This document shows, piece by piece, positions 1 to 7,045 of a stretch of 52,972 bases of DNA. A program made the position numbers and the translations under genes. Source of the stretch: Oscillospiraceae bacterium (GTDB taxonomy: Bacteria; Bacillota; Clostridia; Oscillospirales; Acutalibacteraceae). The notes beneath the pieces were generated by a model. That model ran no database searches. It was not told the DNA's origin and saw nothing but the letters and a program-made list of their open reading frames with translations. Every line of letters starts with the position of its first letter. Position 1 is the stretch's first letter. Location: contig SVPU01000010.1 in NCBI GenBank assembly GCA_015065685.1, forward strand, positions 1-52,972, read 5' to 3'.

Positions 1-1
1 G

Positions 2-121
2 CTCAGGAGAGTGATAGACAGAATCGAGGTAGACCACAACGGAAACGTTGAGGTCTTCCTCAAACTCTTCCGTGAACTTGGCATAGACGAAACCGTTCCA
101 ATTTGTAACGACCGCACATAA
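2..121 (+). CDS. C-terminal end of a probable site-specific (serine-type) recombinase, partial
   Basis: The frame is open from the window edge to the TAA at 119-121 and encodes about 39 residues beginning LRRVIDRIEVDHNGNVEVF. The pattern 'hydrophobic-I-(D/E)-RIEV-D-x-(D/N)-G-x' followed by an alternating hydrophobic strand resembles the extreme C-terminus of large serine recombinases, whose genes often sit at the edge of the element they move. No catalytic domain is in the window, so the assignment rests on this short tail and on the context: the reading frame ends inside sequence that in another frame encodes SpoIIID. An unrelated protein with a similar tail is possible. Confidence 0.5.
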   Translation, partial: LRRVIDRIEVDHNGNVEVFLKLFRELGIDETVPICNDRT

Positions 122-251
122 GGATGTTACCGAGCGCTTGCGATATGATAACCCGCAGCTTTACCGCGAGGTAAAAGAGGTTTTGGAGAAAAATAAGCGC
201 GAACGCCACATAAGAGGCGGTATGGCGACAAGAAGAAAATATAAGGGATAA
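87..251 (+). pseudogene. spoIIID: SpoIIID C-terminal fragment; 5' part missing (interrupted gene)
   Basis: From codon 114 this frame encodes AHKDVTERL, then NPQLYREVKEVLEKNK, then RHIRGGMATRRKYKG and a TAA at 249-251. These match the conserved second half of the sporulation mother-cell regulator SpoIIID (known pattern: HKD-TERL, NP-L--EVK, RHLRGG-AT--KYK). A normal SpoIIID has about 85-93 residues with a helix-turn-helix N-terminus. Here the frame is closed by a TAG at 84-86, only ten codons before the conserved block, and the residues in between (TKPFQFVTT) do not look like SpoIIID. About half the protein is therefore absent from the window. Because a recombinase-like frame ends at 119-121 inside this fragment, the simplest reading is that an element is inserted in spoIIID. 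Identification of the fragment is secure; how the gene came to be split is inferred. Confidence 0.85.
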
Positions 252-287
252 AAAGAAGAGTTTAAGCATTGCTTAAACTCTTCTTTT
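251..287. terminator. Bidirectional terminator, 17-bp perfect stem
   Basis: Positions 251-267 and 271-287 form a perfect 17-bp inverted repeat with a 3-base loop, with A and T runs on its two ends. It lies between the spoIIID stop (251) and the end of the convergent MATE gene (289), so it can terminate both transcripts. Confidence 0.9.
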
Positions 288-288
288 G

Positions 289-1674
289 CTATTTTATAAT
301 ATTTTGTATCCAAATCCCTTTTTTTATCATAAAAAATCCAATTATACATTTACCTAATTCTAATGCCTGCACCAAGAAAAAGACCAACAGGATAGGTAAT
401 GCAGTATATTTTGAAAGAATAAATGCGGTGGGTACAACTAATCCCCAGGTGAAGGCGCTGTCAAACAAGAAGATAATCAGCGTTCGGCCTCCCGACCTTA
501 GCGCAAAATAACAGTTATGCGCAAAAGCGAAAATTGGCATCATAAGAGCCACAACCAATAAAAAGCTTGTTGCCATTTCACGCACTTCTTCTTGTGTGTT
601 ATATATTTTGGGAACAAGTGGCGCTATTGCCGCCATTAAAGTGCCCATAACCAGACAGGTTGCAACGGCGAGACTGAGAAGCTGCCATATAGCCTTTTTG
701 GCTTCTTCAATTTGGTTGGCACCGAGGTGCTGACCGATTATTATTGCAACAGCATTTCCCATAGTTAAAAACACAACATTAAAGAGATTGTTTACAGTAT
801 TTGAAATATTCACTGCGGCAACAACCTGTATACCGCGCACAGAATAACATTGGAGAAGAATTGCCATTCCAAGCGACCACAAAAATTCGTTTACCAAAAG
901 GGGCATACCTTTGGTTAAAATCTTTTTACAAAGCGATAAGGGGATATATAAACTTTTGAAAGCACCTATTATAAATGTGAATTGATTTCTTTTAACCGCA
1001 ACCGCAATTGCTATAATCAACGCTTCCACAAATCTTGACATAACCGTTGCAATTGCAGCACCCGCAACGCCAAGCTTCGGAAAACCAAACTTTCCGAAAA
1101 TAAGCAAATAATTGAATATGAAATTAGTTAATATTGCAAATACACTTGCAATCATTGGAAGCTTTGTTTCACCAAGTTCTCTTAATGAGCTTGCATAGAT
1201 TTGGGTAATTGTGAACGGTAAAAGACCGATAAGCATAATCCTTAGATATGTCCCTGCGTGGCCCAAGGTTGCGACTGCTTCGGCAGGAGTTGTGGTCTCG
1301 GAGATATATGCTTTTATTAGTGGGTTTGGGAAAATGAGAAAAACCGCAAGGGATATAACAAGCATAAAAAATCCTATTAATATTTTTGCGCGGAAGCAAT
1401 ATCGCACACCCTCGGTATCTTTTGCGCCGGCATATTGCGTGGCGAAAATACCTGCACCTGCCATACCGCCAAAAATGCATAGCATAAATACGAAGAGAAG
1501 CTGGTTAACTATTGCCACGGCTGACATTTCAAGTGTGCCCACTCGCCCAATCATAATATTATCTAAAAGACTAACAACATTTGTTATGGTGTTTTGAATT
1601 ATCATAGGTAAAACAATTGTTATTACTCTGATATAAAATTCTTTTGTTCCAATAAGAGTTGATTTGATTCCCAT
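289..1674 (-). CDS. MATE family multidrug/Na+ antiporter
   Basis: A 461-residue integral membrane protein with about twelve hydrophobic segments. It has MATE features: early VLPMIIQNTITNVVSLLDNIMIGRVG, then a second-half repeat (LTKGMPLLVNEFLWSLGMAILL). The family exports cationic drugs or metabolites in exchange for Na+ or H+ across the cytoplasmic membrane. An in-frame ATG lies nine codons upstream at 1701, but the ATG at 1674 is preceded at the right distance by GAGGAAAT, so I take 1674 as the start. The gene converges on spoIIID and diverges from the T-box unit that follows. The substrate cannot be read from sequence. Confidence 0.9.
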   Translation of the reverse strand: MGIKSTLIGTKEFYIRVITIVLPMIIQNTITNVVSLLDNIMIGRVGTLEMSAVAIVNQLLFVFMLCIFGGMAGAGIFATQYAGAKDTEGVRYCFRAKILIGFFMLVISLAVFLIFPNPLIKAYISETTTPAEAVATLGHAGTYLRIMLIGLLPFTITQIYASSLRELGETKLPMIASVFAILTNFIFNYLLIFGKFGFPKLGVAGAAIATVMSRFVEALIIAIAVAVKRNQFTFIIGAFKSLYIPLSLCKKILTKGMPLLVNEFLWSLGMAILLQCYSVRGIQVVAAVNISNTVNNLFNVVFLTMGNAVAIIIGQHLGANQIEEAKKAIWQLLSLAVATCLVMGTLMAAIAPLVPKIYNTQEEVREMATSFLLVVALMMPIFAFAHNCYFALRSGGRTLIIFLFDSAFTWGLVVPTAFILSKYTALPILLVFFLVQALELGKCIIGFFMIKKGIWIQNIIK

Positions 1675-1789: not shown

Positions 1790-2060
1790 AAAAATTATTA
1801 AAAAAGCTTTGACGAAGACGGTTTTGAAAACTGATTTTAAGAGAGTCGGCGGTTGGTGTGAGCCGATAGTGAGTGTTCAAGAAAAACCCATCACTTCCGA
1901 GCTGAAGAGCTGAAATAACAGTAGGTTCTTTCGTGATTGCTGCGTAAAGGCATAAGGGTTGTTAGACCCTGAGTGGCAGATTTTCTGCAATTTGAGTGGT
2001 ACCGCGGATGTTAATTCACATTCGTCTCAAAGAAATTTGAGGCGAATGTTTTTTATTTTT
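1790..2060 (+). promoter_or_regulatory. T-box riboswitch leader 1, specifier codon ATC (Ile)
   Basis: The region has T-box hallmarks: a TGACGAAGA start of Stem I, an AGAGAG segment, the T-box core GAGTGGTACCGCGG (about 1994-2007), and a terminator whose arms 2018-2031 and 2036-2049 are followed by a T run. In Stem I, GAAG near the 5' base pairs with CTTC at 1894-1897, and the run GGTTTT pairs with AAAACC. The internal loop between them holds CATCA on the 3' side, which places ATC at 1890-1892 in the specifier position followed by the usual purine. Uncharged tRNA-Ile is therefore the predicted ligand. Binding would favour the antiterminator and raise expression of the downstream HTH and ligase genes during isoleucine shortage. 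The leader is certain; the specifier was read by hand. Confidence 0.92.
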
Positions 2061-2086: not shown

Positions 2087-2398
2087 ATGAACACAAGTAA
2101 CACATTAACGCAACTTTCGGAGATTGCCGCAAGAATTAAGGAGTTACGTGATATTATGGGTTGGAATACGGCTCAGATGGCTGAAAAAACCCAAATCACC
2201 GAAGAACAGTATGCTCTTTATGAAAGCGGTAAGGTTGATATTCCTTTTACTTTTATACATAAATGTGCCGTGGCTTTTGATGTTGAAATGACCGAGCTTT
2301 TGGAGGGCCATTCTGCAAGACTTTCTAGCTACACTGTAACCCGAAAGGGACAGGGACAGGGCACGGCTAAAGAGGATGGTATTGATATTCCAATTTAG
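2087..2398 (+). CDS. XRE-type HTH protein, detached N-terminal part of HTH-cupin-ligase copy 1
   Basis: 103 residues with an XRE helix-turn-helix at about residues 14-70 (IKELRDIMGWNTAQMAEKT, then YALYESGKVDIP). The start at 2087 follows AAAGGAG at 2071-2077. The protein aligns with the N-terminus of the single 765-residue protein at 4748, down to the shared SYTVTR and GxGQ region, but stops at a TAG where the paralogue continues into a cupin domain. The continuation (YSNLAPKFKDKLAEP) is present in the other frame from about 2386, so one base appears to be missing near 2380-2388. Likely roles are DNA binding, or effector-linked regulation if joined to the cupin. It is either a frameshifted gene, a sequencing error, or a newly separated regulator. 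Confidence 0.8.
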   Translation: MNTSNTLTQLSEIAARIKELRDIMGWNTAQMAEKTQITEEQYALYESGKVDIPFTFIHKCAVAFDVEMTELLEGHSARLSSYTVTRKGQGQGTAKEDGIDIPI

Positions 2399-2418
2399 CA
2401 CCCAAATTCAAGGATAAA

Positions 2419-4353
2419 TTGGCTGAGCCATATTGGGTTAAATATGAATATTCGGCTTCTCAGCAAAACAAACCCATACATCTCACCACACACTCGGGTC
2501 AGGAATTCGACCTTGTATTGAGCGGAAGACTCAAGGTTCAGGTTGGTAATCACACAGAAATTCTTGATGAGGGCGACAGTATTTATTACAATTCTTCAAC
2601 CCCGCACGGAATGATTGCAGTTGATGGTAAGGATTGTGTTTTCTGTGCGGTTGTAATGTCGGGTGAAGACACTGCTGAAACAGTGGTTAGAAAAAGTGTT
2701 ATGGCTGCTAAAAAGTCAGAAAACCTTATCTGTGAGGAATTTGTTGAAACTACCGAGGACGAAAACGGAGCACTTAAAGATATAAAATTTAAAAACACCG
2801 AGAGATTTAACTTTGGATTTGATATTGTTGATAAAATTGCCGATAAATATCCCGATAAATTGGCAATGCTCCATCTCGATGTTAACAAGAACGAGCGCCG
2901 CTTCACATTTAAAGATATCAAGCGCGCTTCAAATCAGGTGGCAAACTATTTCACCTCTTTAGGAATAAAGAGGGGAGATAAGGTTATGCTTGTTCTCAAG
3001 CGCCATTATCAGTTCTGGTTTAGCATGGTGGCTCTTCACAAAATCGGTGCGGTTGCCATTCCTGCAACAAATCAGCTTAAAGAACACGATTTTGAATATA
3101 GATATAATTCTGCCGGTGTTAAGGCAATTGTCTGCACGGCGGACGGAGATACCGCAGAAATTGCACAAAGTGCCGCCCGTAAATGCCCGCAGGTTGAAAA
3201 GCTAATTATGGTTGGCGGCAAGCGTGATGGCTGGCACGATTTTGATAATGAGTATAAGCTTTTCTCGGGTAAGTATGATAGATCCGAGGATGCTTCAGCT
3301 GGGGAAGAGACAGCGCTAATGTTCTTCACATCCGGCACCACAGGAAATCCCAAAATGGCAGCCCACAAGCACACCTATGCTTTAGGTCATTTTGTAACTG
3401 CTAAATATTGGCATTGTTGCGAAAGAGATGGCTTGCATCTCACGATTTCAGATACCGGTTGGGGTAAATCTCTATGGGGTAAGCTCTATGGTCAGTGGCT
3501 TTGCGAGGGTGCAGTTTTTGTTTACGATTTCGACAGATTCGATGAAAACGACATTTTACCGATGTTTGCCAAATACGGCATAACCACATTCTGTGCACCG
3601 CCGACAATGCTCAGAATGTTAATCAGAGGCGACCTTTCTAAGTTTGACCTTTCATCAATTCATCATATGACCACCGCGGGCGAGGCACTTAATCCCGAGG
3701 TATTCAAGCAGTTTAAAGCGGCAACAGGCCTTGAAATTATGGAAGGCTTCGGTCAGACCGAAACCACCCTTGCCATTGCTAACCTTTATGGCACAACACC
3801 GAAAATCGGCGCAATGGGCAAGGCTTCACCGCAGTTTGATATTGATGTTGTTGACCCCGACGGCAACAGCGTGGCAACAGGTGAGGTTGGCGAAATCGTT
3901 ATCCATACCGACAAAGAAGTGCCTTGCGGACTCTTTAAGGAATACTATCTTGACAGCGAAAAAACCAGCGAGGCTTGGCACGACGGTATGTACCACACGG
4001 GCGATACCGCTTGGCGCGATGAGGATGGATATTTCTGGTATGTTGGCCGCGTGGATGATGTTATTAAGTCTTCGGGCTATAGAATTGGACCCTTTGAAAT
4101 TGAGAGCGTTATTATGGAGCTTCCTTATGTTCTCGAATGCGGTGTTTCGGCTGAGCCTGACGAAATAAGAGGTCAGGTTGTTAAGGCAAGCATTGTGTTG
4201 ACAAAAGGCACTAAGCCCTCAGATGAGCTCAAAAAAGAGATTCAGGCTTATGTTAAATCCCACACGGCGCCTTATAAGTATCCGAGAGTGGTTGTATTCA
4301 GAGATGAGCTGCCCAAAACCATAAGCGGAAAAATTCAGCGTAATAAACTATAA
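2419..4353 (+). CDS. Cupin domain plus AMP-forming acyl-CoA ligase, copy 1 (predicted 2-methylbutyrate-type)
   Basis: From a TTG at 2419 the frame encodes 644 residues. A cupin barrel is at about 20-90 (HSGQEFDLVLSG, then GDSIYYNSSTPHGM). An acyl-CoA synthetase follows, with the P-loop TSGTTGNPK at about 301, GEALNPEVF, GFGQTE, YHTGDTAW, GRVDDVIKSSGYR and the C-terminal catalytic lysine in SGKIQR. The enzyme would activate a carboxylic acid with ATP and CoA. AAGGA lies just before the TTG, but codons upstream of it (YSNLAPKFKDK) still match the paralogue, so the true gene probably starts at 2087 and is frameshifted. The Ile-type T-box upstream suggests a precursor of isoleucine such as 2-methylbutyrate. 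That substrate is inferred. Confidence 0.85.
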   Translation: MAEPYWVKYEYSASQQNKPIHLTTHSGQEFDLVLSGRLKVQVGNHTEILDEGDSIYYNSSTPHGMIAVDGKDCVFCAVVMSGEDTAETVVRKSVMAAKKSENLICEEFVETTEDENGALKDIKFKNTERFNFGFDIVDKIADKYPDKLAMLHLDVNKNERRFTFKDIKRASNQVANYFTSLGIKRGDKVMLVLKRHYQFWFSMVALHKIGAVAIPATNQLKEHDFEYRYNSAGVKAIVCTADGDTAEIAQSAARKCPQVEKLIMVGGKRDGWHDFDNEYKLFSGKYDRSEDASAGEETALMFFTSGTTGNPKMAAHKHTYALGHFVTAKYWHCCERDGLHLTISDTGWGKSLWGKLYGQWLCEGAVFVYDFDRFDENDILPMFAKYGITTFCAPPTMLRMLIRGDLSKFDLSSIHHMTTAGEALNPEVFKQFKAATGLEIMEGFGQTETTLAIANLYGTTPKIGAMGKASPQFDIDVVDPDGNSVATGEVGEIVIHTDKEVPCGLFKEYYLDSEKTSEAWHDGMYHTGDTAWRDEDGYFWYVGRVDDVIKSSGYRIGPFEIESVIMELPYVLECGVSAEPDEIRGQVVKASIVLTKGTKPSDELKKEIQAYVKSHTAPYKYPRVVVFRDELPKTISGKIQRNKL

Positions 4354-4431: not shown

Positions 4432-4716
4432 AACTCTGTAAAAGGCTTTGACGAAGAGGGCGCTTAAATAGCATCTTTAGAGAGGCGGCGGGTGGTGCAA
4501 GCCGTTGGTGCGAAATTTGCGTTTGTAGCTTCTGAGCCGAGGGGAAGAAAGGCTTTAAAGTTTAGTAGAACCTCTCCGTGATTGCTGCGTAAAGGCATAG
4601 GAATTGTTTGATTCCAAGAGTGGCGGTTTTTAACTGCAATTTGAGTGGTACCGCGGGTTAATGTTAAATCATTGCTCGTCTCAAAGTCATAGCTTTGGGG
4701 CGAGCGTTTGTTATTT
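4432..4716 (+). promoter_or_regulatory. T-box riboswitch leader 2, specifier codon GTA (Val)
   Basis: The leader is homologous in layout to the first: TGACGAAGA start, AGAGAG, the core GAGTGGTACCGCGG (about 4643-4656), and a terminator with arms 4674-4686 and 4693-4705 plus a T-rich tail. The GAAG/CTTC base of Stem I closes on a 3' loop reading GTAG, which puts GTA at 4525-4527 in the place occupied by ATC in leader 1. Valine tRNA is the predicted ligand. Antitermination on valine starvation would turn on the whole run of genes to 11378, because no further terminator is visible before 11388. Confidence 0.92.
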
Positions 4717-4747
4717 AATTCGAGTGCCGCCCGAAATGGAGGAAAAT

Positions 4748-7045
4748 ATGCAACAGATTACAGGACTTGATTTTAAAATCAAAGAAATGGCGGGCAGAAT
4801 TAGGGAACTCCGTGAGATTATGGGGATGTCCGTTGCTGAAATGGCGGCAAAAACCGCTGTTACAGAAAGTGAATATATTGCGTGTGAAAATGGTGAGAGC
4901 GACCTTAACTTTGCTTTCATCTACCGTTGCGCTTTGGCTTTTAATGTCGATGTTACTGATATTATTGAAGGCTATAGCCCAAAGCTTAAATCTTATACTG
5001 TAACCCGTGCGGGTGAGGGTCAAAAAATTGAAAAGGCTCACGGCATGACCTATTACAACTTGGCTTATGCTTTTAAAAACCGTATTGCTGAGCCGCTTTA
5101 TGTTGAAAGTGTTTACAGTGAAGAAGCGCAATTAAGAGATATCGAGCTTACAACCCACGCAGGTCAGGAATGCGACCTTGTAATTGAGGGACATCTTAAG
5201 GTTCAGGTTGGTGAGCACACGGTAGTACTTGGTCCCGGGGACAGTATTTATTACGATTCATCCACTCCGCACGGAATGATTGCGGTTGAGGGGGAAAATT
5301 GCAAATTCTATGCAATAGTGCTTAATCCCACTGGTGAGCCGATACCTGAGCTTTCCAATATACATCCCGAGCCGATTAAGAAGGTAGCAAAGGTTGTTAA
5401 GAAAGACAAAAAACAGCGCATTTATAAGAAATACATAGAAACAGAAGAAAACGAGAACGGAACACCCACATCAATCAAGTTCAAGAACACAGAAAAATTC
5501 AACTTTGCTTTTGATTTGGTTGATGAATTGGCAGAGCGCGAGCCTGAAAAGCTGGCTCTTCTTCATATTTCGCGCGACGGTGCAGAGCGCAGATTTACCT
5601 TTAAGGATATTAAAAAGGCATCTAACCAGTGCGCTAACTATTTCAAGTCGCTCGGTATTAAAAAGGGCGATAGGGTAATGTTGGTACTTAAAAGACATTA
5701 TCAGTTCTGGTTCTGTATGATGGCACTTAATAAGTTGGGCGCAATCGTAATCCCTGCAACCAATCAGCTGCAGGAGCACGATTTTGAATACCGTTTTCAG
5801 TCTGCGGGAATTTCAGCAGTTGTTTGCACAGCTGATGGCGATACTGCAAACCAGATTGACCTTGCAGCAGAAAAATGTCCAACACTCAAACACAAAATGG
5901 TGGTTAATGGCGAGAAAGAGGGCTGGAGAACCTTTGATGAGGAGTATACACTCTACAGCACTCACTATAACCGCACTGAAGATACTGCTTGCGGCGAAGA
6001 TTTAATGCTTATGTATTTCACTTCGGGCACAAGTGGTTATCCGAAAATTGCGGCTCATAATTATAAGTATCCTTTGGGACATTTCCACACTGCTAAATAT
6101 TGGCACAATGTTGACCCCGATGGCTTGCATTTTACCATTTCGGATACAGGCTGGGCAAAGGCAATGTGGGGCAAGCTTTATGGCCAATGGCTATGTGAGG
6201 CGGCAATATTCGTTTACGATTTTGACCGTTTTGATGCGGCTGAAATATTGCCTATGTTCCAAAAACACAATATAACAACCTTCTGCGCACCGCCAACAAT
6301 GCTCAGAATGCTTATCAAGCAGGATATTAGTCAATATGATTTATCTTCTGTTAAGCATATGACGACAGCGGGCGAGGCGCTCAACCCCGAGGTTTACCGA
6401 CAGTTTGAAAAAATCACAGGTCTTCAGATTCTTGAAGGCTTTGGTCAGACTGAAAGCACTATGATTATCGGTAATATGACAGGTGCTTCTCACAAGATTG
6501 GCTCAATGGGTAAACCTGCACCGATTTACGATGTTCATATTGTTGATACTGACGGTAACGACGTTGCAGTTGGTGAAACGGGTGAGATTGTAATCAACAT
6601 TGAAAACGGTCGTCCTTGCGGTCTTGCAACCTGTTATTACGGGGACGAAGAAAAAACTGCTGAAACATGGGACGGCAAGTATTACCATACAGGTGACACC
6701 GCTTGGATGGATGAGGACGGTTTCCTTTGGTATGTTGGCCGAGTTGATGATGTTATCAAGTCCTCGGGCTACAGAATCGGACCCTTCGAAATCGAGAGCG
6801 TTATTATGGAGCTTCCATATGTTCTCGAGTGCGGTGTGTCTGCCGCACCCGATGAGGTTAGAGGTCAGGTTGTTAAGGCGAGCATTGTTCTTGTGAACGG
6901 TACTGAGGGTACAGAGGAATTAAAGAAAGAAATTCAAAACTACGTTAAAGAAAGAACTGCGCCTTATAAATACCCGAGAATTGTGGTATTTAGAGATAGT
7001 CTTCCTAAAACCACAAGCGGCAAAATTCAACGTAATAAGCTGTGA
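4748..7045 (+). CDS. XRE HTH-cupin-acyl-CoA ligase fusion, copy 2 (predicted isobutyrate-type)
   Basis: A 765-residue three-part protein. XRE helix-turn-helix at about 10-70 (RIRELREIMGMSVAEMAAK), cupin at about 120-185 (HAGQECDLVIEGHLKVQVG, then DSSTPHGM), AMP-forming acyl-CoA ligase from about 225 to the end. The ligase has TSGTSGYPK at about 425, GFGQTE, YHTGDTAW and the terminal SGKIQRNKL lysine. An earlier in-frame ATG at 4661 lies inside the T-box and is rejected; ATG 4748 has GGAGG at 4738-4742. The ligase would convert a short branched acid to its CoA ester for the reductive carboxylase encoded downstream; the Val T-box points to isobutyrate. HTH-cupin proteins are usually separate regulators, so fusion to the enzyme is unusual and may let a ligand-sensing regulator sit on its own enzyme. 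Confidence 0.9.
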   Translation: MQQITGLDFKIKEMAGRIRELREIMGMSVAEMAAKTAVTESEYIACENGESDLNFAFIYRCALAFNVDVTDIIEGYSPKLKSYTVTRAGEGQKIEKAHGMTYYNLAYAFKNRIAEPLYVESVYSEEAQLRDIELTTHAGQECDLVIEGHLKVQVGEHTVVLGPGDSIYYDSSTPHGMIAVEGENCKFYAIVLNPTGEPIPELSNIHPEPIKKVAKVVKKDKKQRIYKKYIETEENENGTPTSIKFKNTEKFNFAFDLVDELAEREPEKLALLHISRDGAERRFTFKDIKKASNQCANYFKSLGIKKGDRVMLVLKRHYQFWFCMMALNKLGAIVIPATNQLQEHDFEYRFQSAGISAVVCTADGDTANQIDLAAEKCPTLKHKMVVNGEKEGWRTFDEEYTLYSTHYNRTEDTACGEDLMLMYFTSGTSGYPKIAAHNYKYPLGHFHTAKYWHNVDPDGLHFTISDTGWAKAMWGKLYGQWLCEAAIFVYDFDRFDAAEILPMFQKHNITTFCAPPTMLRMLIKQDISQYDLSSVKHMTTAGEALNPEVYRQFEKITGLQILEGFGQTESTMIIGNMTGASHKIGSMGKPAPIYDVHIVDTDGNDVAVGETGEIVINIENGRPCGLATCYYGDEEKTAETWDGKYYHTGDTAWMDEDGFLWYVGRVDDVIKSSGYRIGPFEIESVIMELPYVLECGVSAAPDEVRGQVVKASIVLVNGTEGTEELKKEIQNYVKERTAPYKYPRIVVFRDSLPKTTSGKIQRNKL

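Follow-up and report, generated by a model that had tools for sequence, protein, structure and literature searches.

A mobile element with a large serine recombinase splits the sporulation gene spoIIID in gut Clostridia and is probably excised in the mother cell

SpoIIID is a transcription factor that acts early in the mother cell of sporulating bacteria. In the genome studied here, the 3′ half of its gene directly follows the end of a large serine recombinase gene, and in relatives the gene is found in two pieces split at the same site. We consider it probable (roughly 0.7) that spoIIID is split, within the codons for KSTVHKDVT, by a mobile element that carries a large serine integrase, and that this element is removed in the mother cell by an excision driven by sigE. 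In growing cells, the recombinase alone would hold the element integrated. After asymmetric division, sigE would transcribe both the 5′ half of spoIIID and a small protein encoded by the element; acting as a recombination directionality factor (RDF), the latter would cause the element to be excised in the mother cell, spoIIID would be rejoined there, and the forespore would retain the element.

The junction at the start of the window

The window, i.e. the whole 52,972-nucleotide stretch analysed (G000:C2:1-52972), belongs to a genome assembly of 1,481,746 bases in 24 contigs (91.41% complete), and the split-gene junction lies in the first bases of its contig (Table 1). The frame from base 2 translates into 39 residues as LRRVIDRIEVDHNGNVEVFLKLFRELGIDETVPICNDRT. 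With 46.7 bits, these align to the C-terminal positions 473-511 of a 511-position model of the recombinase family; the sole other match to this model in the same genome, a 503-residue frame at 34 bits, is a different recombinase. Over 119 nt, window positions 2-120 share 95.8% identity with the end of a full-length recombinase gene (L191, genome G125) from another family of the same order. The stop codon of the recombinase is contained in the crossover core of attR. A second frame reads AHKDVTERLRYDNPQLYREVKEVLEKNKRERHIRGGMATRRKYKG, and the SpoIIID profile PF12116 matches window 108-248 (+) with 72 bits, above its cut-off, over profile positions 34-80 of 82. Positions 115-251 are closest to the intact spoIIID of the window's own genus (79% over 135 nt). 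The junction is thus a true chimera, whose two parts differ in history and meet at the core, at about 115-121.

Table 1. Features of the window (coordinates in nucleotides)
Feature	Position	Strand	Description
Large serine recombinase, 3′ end	1..121	+	last 39 codons 2-118, stop TAA 119-121; remainder off contig
attR	89..121	+	element arm GAAACCGTTCC..GTAACGACCG and crossover core ACATAA (116-121)
spoIIID, 3′ half	108..251	+	residues AHKDVTERL..RRKYKG, stop TAA 249-251
Probable intrinsic terminator	253..290	+	inverted repeat then T run just 3′ of spoIIID, read by eye
T-box leader	1800-2032		RF00230, 114 bits; upstream of broken tandem copy
Tandem gene, first copy	2087-4353		broken by frameshift at about 2385-2398
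Tandem gene, second copy	4661-7045		apparently same gene as first copy

The original prediction, made from the window's letters, of a spoIIID 3′ half directly preceded by the 3′ end of a recombinase gene is therefore borne out on both counts. Its start for the half-gene at position 84 needs correction, however: the half-gene is real, but 84 is merely the previous stop in the frame, and spoIIID proper begins at about 111-117. The prediction had also called for a search for the 5′ half and for a second copy. In the own assembly neither was found, the only other match at E ≤ 10 scoring 11.7 bits, below the cut-off, and the rest of the recombinase gene was likewise sought there and not found. The contig begins only 115 bases ahead of the core, so that a 5′ half in this genome would lie beyond its edge.

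Elsewhere in the window stand two tandem copies of apparently one gene, with what we take to be XRE, cupin and AMP-ligase parts. The first is broken into open reading frames (ORFs) of 103 and 644 residues, where the second has a single one of 794.

Split spoIIID genes in other genomes

A SpoIIID match is present in 49 of 60 genomes (own genome included) and absent from the other 11, and in several of the 60 SpoIIID is in two pieces that end near profile position ~34-43. In a survey of the order, 336 of 394 sampled genomes had a SpoIIID match, and 24 rows (own genome included) were chosen by eye for a weak best E-value, between 7e-14 and 7e-21. With the junctions read, 21 of the 336 SpoIIID-positive genomes are split at the same site as the window. 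Both halves lie on one contig in 14 and on two contigs in two (G125, G243), while five (G000, G053, G115, G205, G254) have one half carrying an att arm; in G205 and G243 the arms are of another type. Three candidates were dropped: G238 (a frameshift in a contiguous gene), G363 (truncation at a contig edge) and G054 (ambiguous).

The 14 one-contig splits have the two halves 6.7-34.9 kb apart. In 13 of them, all except G106, which lacks this usual arrangement, the last gene before the 3′ half is a same-strand recombinase of 500-542 residues, whose end lies at -41 to +18 nt relative to where the 3′ half match starts. It is the C-terminus of this family that the window frame matches. The anatomy of these 14 genomes as a whole supports the predicted skin-like element with a serine recombinase at its edge. 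Two genomes (G294, G024) possess a whole spoIIID besides a 5′ half. An extra 5′ half without att arms also occurs at L178 (G134:C23, 1622-1745), in addition to the split spoIIID of that genome.

A degenerate attR pattern, built to miss most intact genes and applied to a named genome collection, found at least 118 stretches, counts that do not represent a prevalence. Among the 118 matches listed, 110 are a spoIIID 3′ half without an in-frame 5′ half, 74 have a recombinase match and 8 are due to chance. As in the window, the match lies ≤130 bases from a contig start in 12 of 80 matches listed (L048, L055, L072, L083, L085, L097, L098, L099, L101, L109, L111, L116). The shared recombinase end probably breaks metagenome assemblies, so that many split spoIIID genes may be hidden.

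Eight named genomes were searched whole: Sporofaciens musculi WCA-9-b2, Schaedlerella arabinosiphila DSM 106076, Blautia glucerasea MSK.21.93, Clostridium sp. Marseille-P3244, Marasmitruncus massiliensis Marseille-P3646, Blautia sp. An249, Lachnospiraceae C77 and Clostridia bacterium PG1894_211. All eight have both halves on one strand of one contig, and an intact spoIIID was found in none of them. Blautia sp. An249 carries the small gene and the recombinase at the left end of its element. In M. massiliensis, where the halves are ~125 kb apart, and in PG1894_211 (~60 kb), the arms are of other types and a recombinase of this family is missing beside the 3′ half. Since arms and recombinases differ among these genomes, several integrases have reached the same spoIIID codons.

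Attachment sites and rejoining of the halves

The insertion site is precise and falls within the coding part of a sporulation gene. Left ends typically read ..ACCGTACATA..GTAACAAAATAGAACGGTTT and right ends ..GAAACCGTTCTAATT..GACNACCGTACATAARGA, with variation; by eye, a window-like att arm is present in 11 of the 14 complete splits and weak or absent in G106, G382 and G424. In the inferred attP sites the arms form an inverted repeat around GTACATA, in the same register in 17 of 17 and with p ≤ 0.05 by shuffling in 14 of 17. The exact shared core measures 1-12 nt, commonly GTACATA, and is a single nucleotide in G106 and G331.

Joining the halves in silico gave a stop-free SpoIIID of 82-96 residues in all 14 complete splits. 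The joined proteins score 121-139 bits, compared with 132-167 for the 28 intact genes that built the model. Comparison with uninterrupted relatives, also proposed at the outset, gave a concordant picture: when G331 was compared with two congeners whose gene is intact, and G175, G225 and G346 with one apiece, the near flanks (~130-180 nt) of all four split genes abut in the intact gene with an overlap of 5-13 bp, the farther flanks aligning only partly.

The recombinase and its small partner gene

The Pfam domains Resolvase, Recombinase and Zn ribbon are present in both full-length recombinases scanned. For two proteins of the family, the nearest NCBIfam models are CcrB (155-167 bits) and XisF (115-125 bits), scores far below the curated cut-offs of 900 and 375 bits, respectively. 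Between G118 and G331, from two families, the recombinases are 94.9% identical and the SpoIIIDs 56.1%, which indicates recent transfer between families.

Upstream of the recombinase, and on its strand, stands a small ORF with the motif KLNYRFHNPN, which an iterated model detects at 43 of 61 recombinase loci, at one of them weakly (14 bits); the 18 without it include loci with little upstream DNA and others with 2-4 kb. No known family gives the small protein a good match: the best E-value for two members against Pfam and PHROGs was 0.02, none of 30 matched NCBIfam, and its profile reached E 0.03 or worse against solved structures.

In the set of 60 genomes, a recombinase above 890 bits occurs in five (G053, G044, G035, G028, G050), each time abutting a split 3′ half; the next-best scores 450 bits, and 24 of 60 match at E 1e-20 when weaker ones are included. 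The small gene is confined to the same five, although these five are rows of the small-gene model and three of them rows of the recombinase model, so that the informative part is the absence elsewhere. At threshold, neither gene is found in the split genomes G000, G030 and G024, where the half lies at a contig end. From its position, its pairing with the recombinase and its promoter, the small protein is a candidate RDF.

Promoters

The -35 element has been given as ATA for sigE and as AC for sigK (PMC3789822). We trained a sigE matrix on 29 intact spoIIID upstream regions (ATA, 16 nt, CATACAAT). Its scores passed the 99% level of shuffled sequences for 21 of 29 further spoIIID upstreams and 16 of 42 upstreams of the small gene, and for none of 57 recombinase upstreams. 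At the 95% level 24 of the 42 small-gene upstreams passed, and 26 failed the 99% level. The shuffles were mononucleotide and the sequences are related, so that these promoter counts are non-independent. The dyad ACTA-16-CATA occurs in 10 of 42 small-gene upstreams, against a shuffled maximum of 4-5. Some -35 boxes are ACTA, which could suit sigK.

A sigA-type box matching at 10 or more of 12 positions is present in 14 of 57 recombinase upstreams, compared with 5% in shuffles, a modest excess (mean 8.6 vs 8.3 matches). In 34 of the 57, against 2% of shuffled sequences, the word GTAACAGAACG is present with at least 9 of 11 matches, at about -50 and just behind the -10 box. It resembles the right half of attB, coded by VTER. 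Self-repression of the recombinase or feedback by SpoIIID would be possible roles for this copy.

These promoters bear on an initial concern that SpoIIID acts early in the mother cell, and that excision would have to precede or accompany it. The concern is fair, and a plausible answer is a vegetative-type promoter for the recombinase combined with a sigE-type promoter for the small gene that would need no SpoIIID. The word GTAACAGAACG also resembles the SpoIIID box, TGTAACAAT (PMC5025042).

Viral form and cargo of the element

The recombinase (884-887 bits) and the small protein are both encoded on four IMG/VR contigs of 50-119 kb, which came to light in a protein search; three of them are alike in recombinase and attP. 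The viral contigs carry an unbroken attP directly 3′ of the recombinase end, e.g. GTGACTCCTGTACATACAGGAGTAACAAAATAGAACGGTT, and none of the four records, which are possibly fragments, has a SpoIIID match. IMGVR_UViG_3300028833_003189 encodes tape measure, tail and virion structural proteins and an endolysin; as these tail and lysis genes accompany the recombinase and attP, at least one member is a tailed phage. By eye, the small genes of L221 and L222 are also preceded by ATA or CTA and, 16 nt further on, by CATA.

Searches of the phage and plasmid collections matched 564 and 477 records, all below 60% identity, and among the matches listed no relative above 56% is found in annotated phages or plasmids. 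The best match in the phage collection, at 55.7%, is MT838016.1 (L217), a 6.4-kb "Bacteriophage sp." record that was considered as an excised form and rejected: because it holds a spoIIID 3′ half at 3625-3766 behind the recombinase, it is bacterial DNA in a virome. A palindromic DNA pattern for free attP in viral contigs was likewise discarded, its five stretches having no recombinase and being taken as chance matches.

The cargo of the islands was scanned in 9 of the 14 elements (100 of 200 listed ORFs, each 120 residues or longer) and comprises riboflavin genes, glycosyltransferases, restriction-modification, conjugation/relaxase, flagellin and sugar-nucleotide genes. Virion families were absent from the chromosomal elements among the matches listed (25 of 80, and 25 of 26 at E 1e-25). 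The 7.7-kb element of G198 (L170) was assigned riboflavin synthesis cargo from its ORF sizes.

Constraint on the split gene and alternative explanations

Both halves of the split gene are under constraint. For 3′ halves, compared in three identity bands (116 split sequences with 18, 280 and 1139 pairs; 32 intact ones with 3, 1 and 111 pairs), pN/pS was 0.042, 0.122 and 0.169 in split genes vs 0, 0.121 and 0.199 in intact ones, with 1.98, 0.98 and 1.02 in a shifted-frame control. The 30 split 5′ halves gave 0.135, 0.172 and 0.332 vs 0.081, 0.156 and 0.275 for intact ones, and 1.4-1.7 in the shifted frame. SpoIVA is present in 22 of 24 genomes tested, mostly split ones and including that of the window; G035 and G024 lack it. 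M. massiliensis Marseille-P3646T is described as spore-forming, with spores seen on micrographs (PMC9584879), and the only spoIIID found in it is split, by an element of another type; this example bears on split spoIIID generally and not on the window-type integrase. In G353 (L186, 3769-10550) the recombinase frame of a decayed element breaks off after ~50 codons; there the 5′ half is present a second time, in front of the 3′ half, and yields a whole spoIIID, as expected if the gene matters.

These data weigh on three other accounts of the split. Ordinary temperate phages and islands might use spoIIID as their attB and leave only under stress, their lysogens remaining asporogenous until cured. 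The unbroken attP of the viral contigs and the recent transfer between families do attest mobility, and with 11 of 60 genomes lacking a SpoIIID match, loss of the gene may be common. Such hosts would nevertheless be hard to square with the low pN/pS of both halves, the prevalence of SpoIVA, a type strain described as spore-forming in which the one spoIIID found is split, and the sigE-like promoter of the small gene, discernible by eye in the viral contigs too; we regard this account as unlikely, if the most serious of the three. A dead insertion, with the element unable to leave and the host without a working spoIIID, was named as the alternative from the start. It would fit the absence of the 5′ half and most of the recombinase from the window's assembly, as well as the decay in G353, yet the missing part in the window coincides with a contig end, the cut recombinase of G353 accompanies a whole spoIIID, and 13 of 14 complete splits keep a full-length recombinase between constrained halves. 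Together with the type strain, though its element is of another type, this makes a dead insertion very improbable. Least credible is an assembly artefact in which two unrelated pieces were fused at the contig start: the junction does sit at base 1 of a contig in a 24-contig assembly, but the same join at the same codon recurs inside large contigs elsewhere (G044 is a single 3.0-Mb contig) and in named isolates.

Excision in the mother cell therefore remains our preferred reading. A wider proposal, for and against which the odds seem to us about even, is that spoIIID is a standing hot spot for several serine integrases in gut Clostridia, and that at least one phage family has a sigE-promoted RDF, so that the second tier of mother-cell expression would run only after the element leaves; through the copy of GTAACAGAACG found at many recombinase promoters, the integrase or the rejoined SpoIIID may switch the recombinase gene off.

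Implications and comparison with known systems

Split spoIIID genes are not rare (21 of 336) and occur in named gut isolates, which makes the proposal directly testable, and the system supplies integrase, attP, attB and a candidate RDF as a set. The findings also suggest that genuine spore formers may be annotated as lacking spoIIID. We recognised no element in spoIIID in the open-access literature searched. Developmentally excised intervening elements are already known as a kind, from sigK, gerE, spsM, yabG and kamA; what appears new is spoIIID as the target, along with the small protein and the phage form.

In Clostridioides difficile, the skin element in sigK has a vegetative recombinase, CD1231, and a 72-residue RDF, CD1234, under the control of sigE and SpoIIID (PMC5025042). 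The element described here shares with it a large serine recombinase, a small separate gene and a split gene for a mother-cell regulator, and, to judge by the promoters, would also pair a vegetative recombinase with a small gene under sigE. It differs in its target, spoIIID rather than sigK, and in its trigger, which cannot need SpoIIID, whereas CD1234 does. As SpoIIID helps to trigger the excision in sigK in C. difficile, interruption of its own gene would place control one step higher.

The gin element in gerE of Bacillus cereus ATCC10987 is described in the cited text as an island without phage genes and with three recombinase genes (PMC5595907). It too splits a small mother-cell regulator gene; here, in contrast, there is one recombinase, usually beside attR, and a phage relative. 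SPbeta in spsM, yin in yabG and prophages in kamA are excised to restore the gene (PMC4191935, PMC10747680, PMC6957869), and like them the present element is phage-like and occupies a sporulation-linked gene, which here, unlike there, encodes an early mother-cell transcription factor. Finally, the staphylococcal cassette chromosome (Ccr) and XisF of the fdxN element provide the nearest NCBIfam models and a likeness in variable cargo beside one recombinase; the scores, however, are far under the cut-offs, and the target genes are others.
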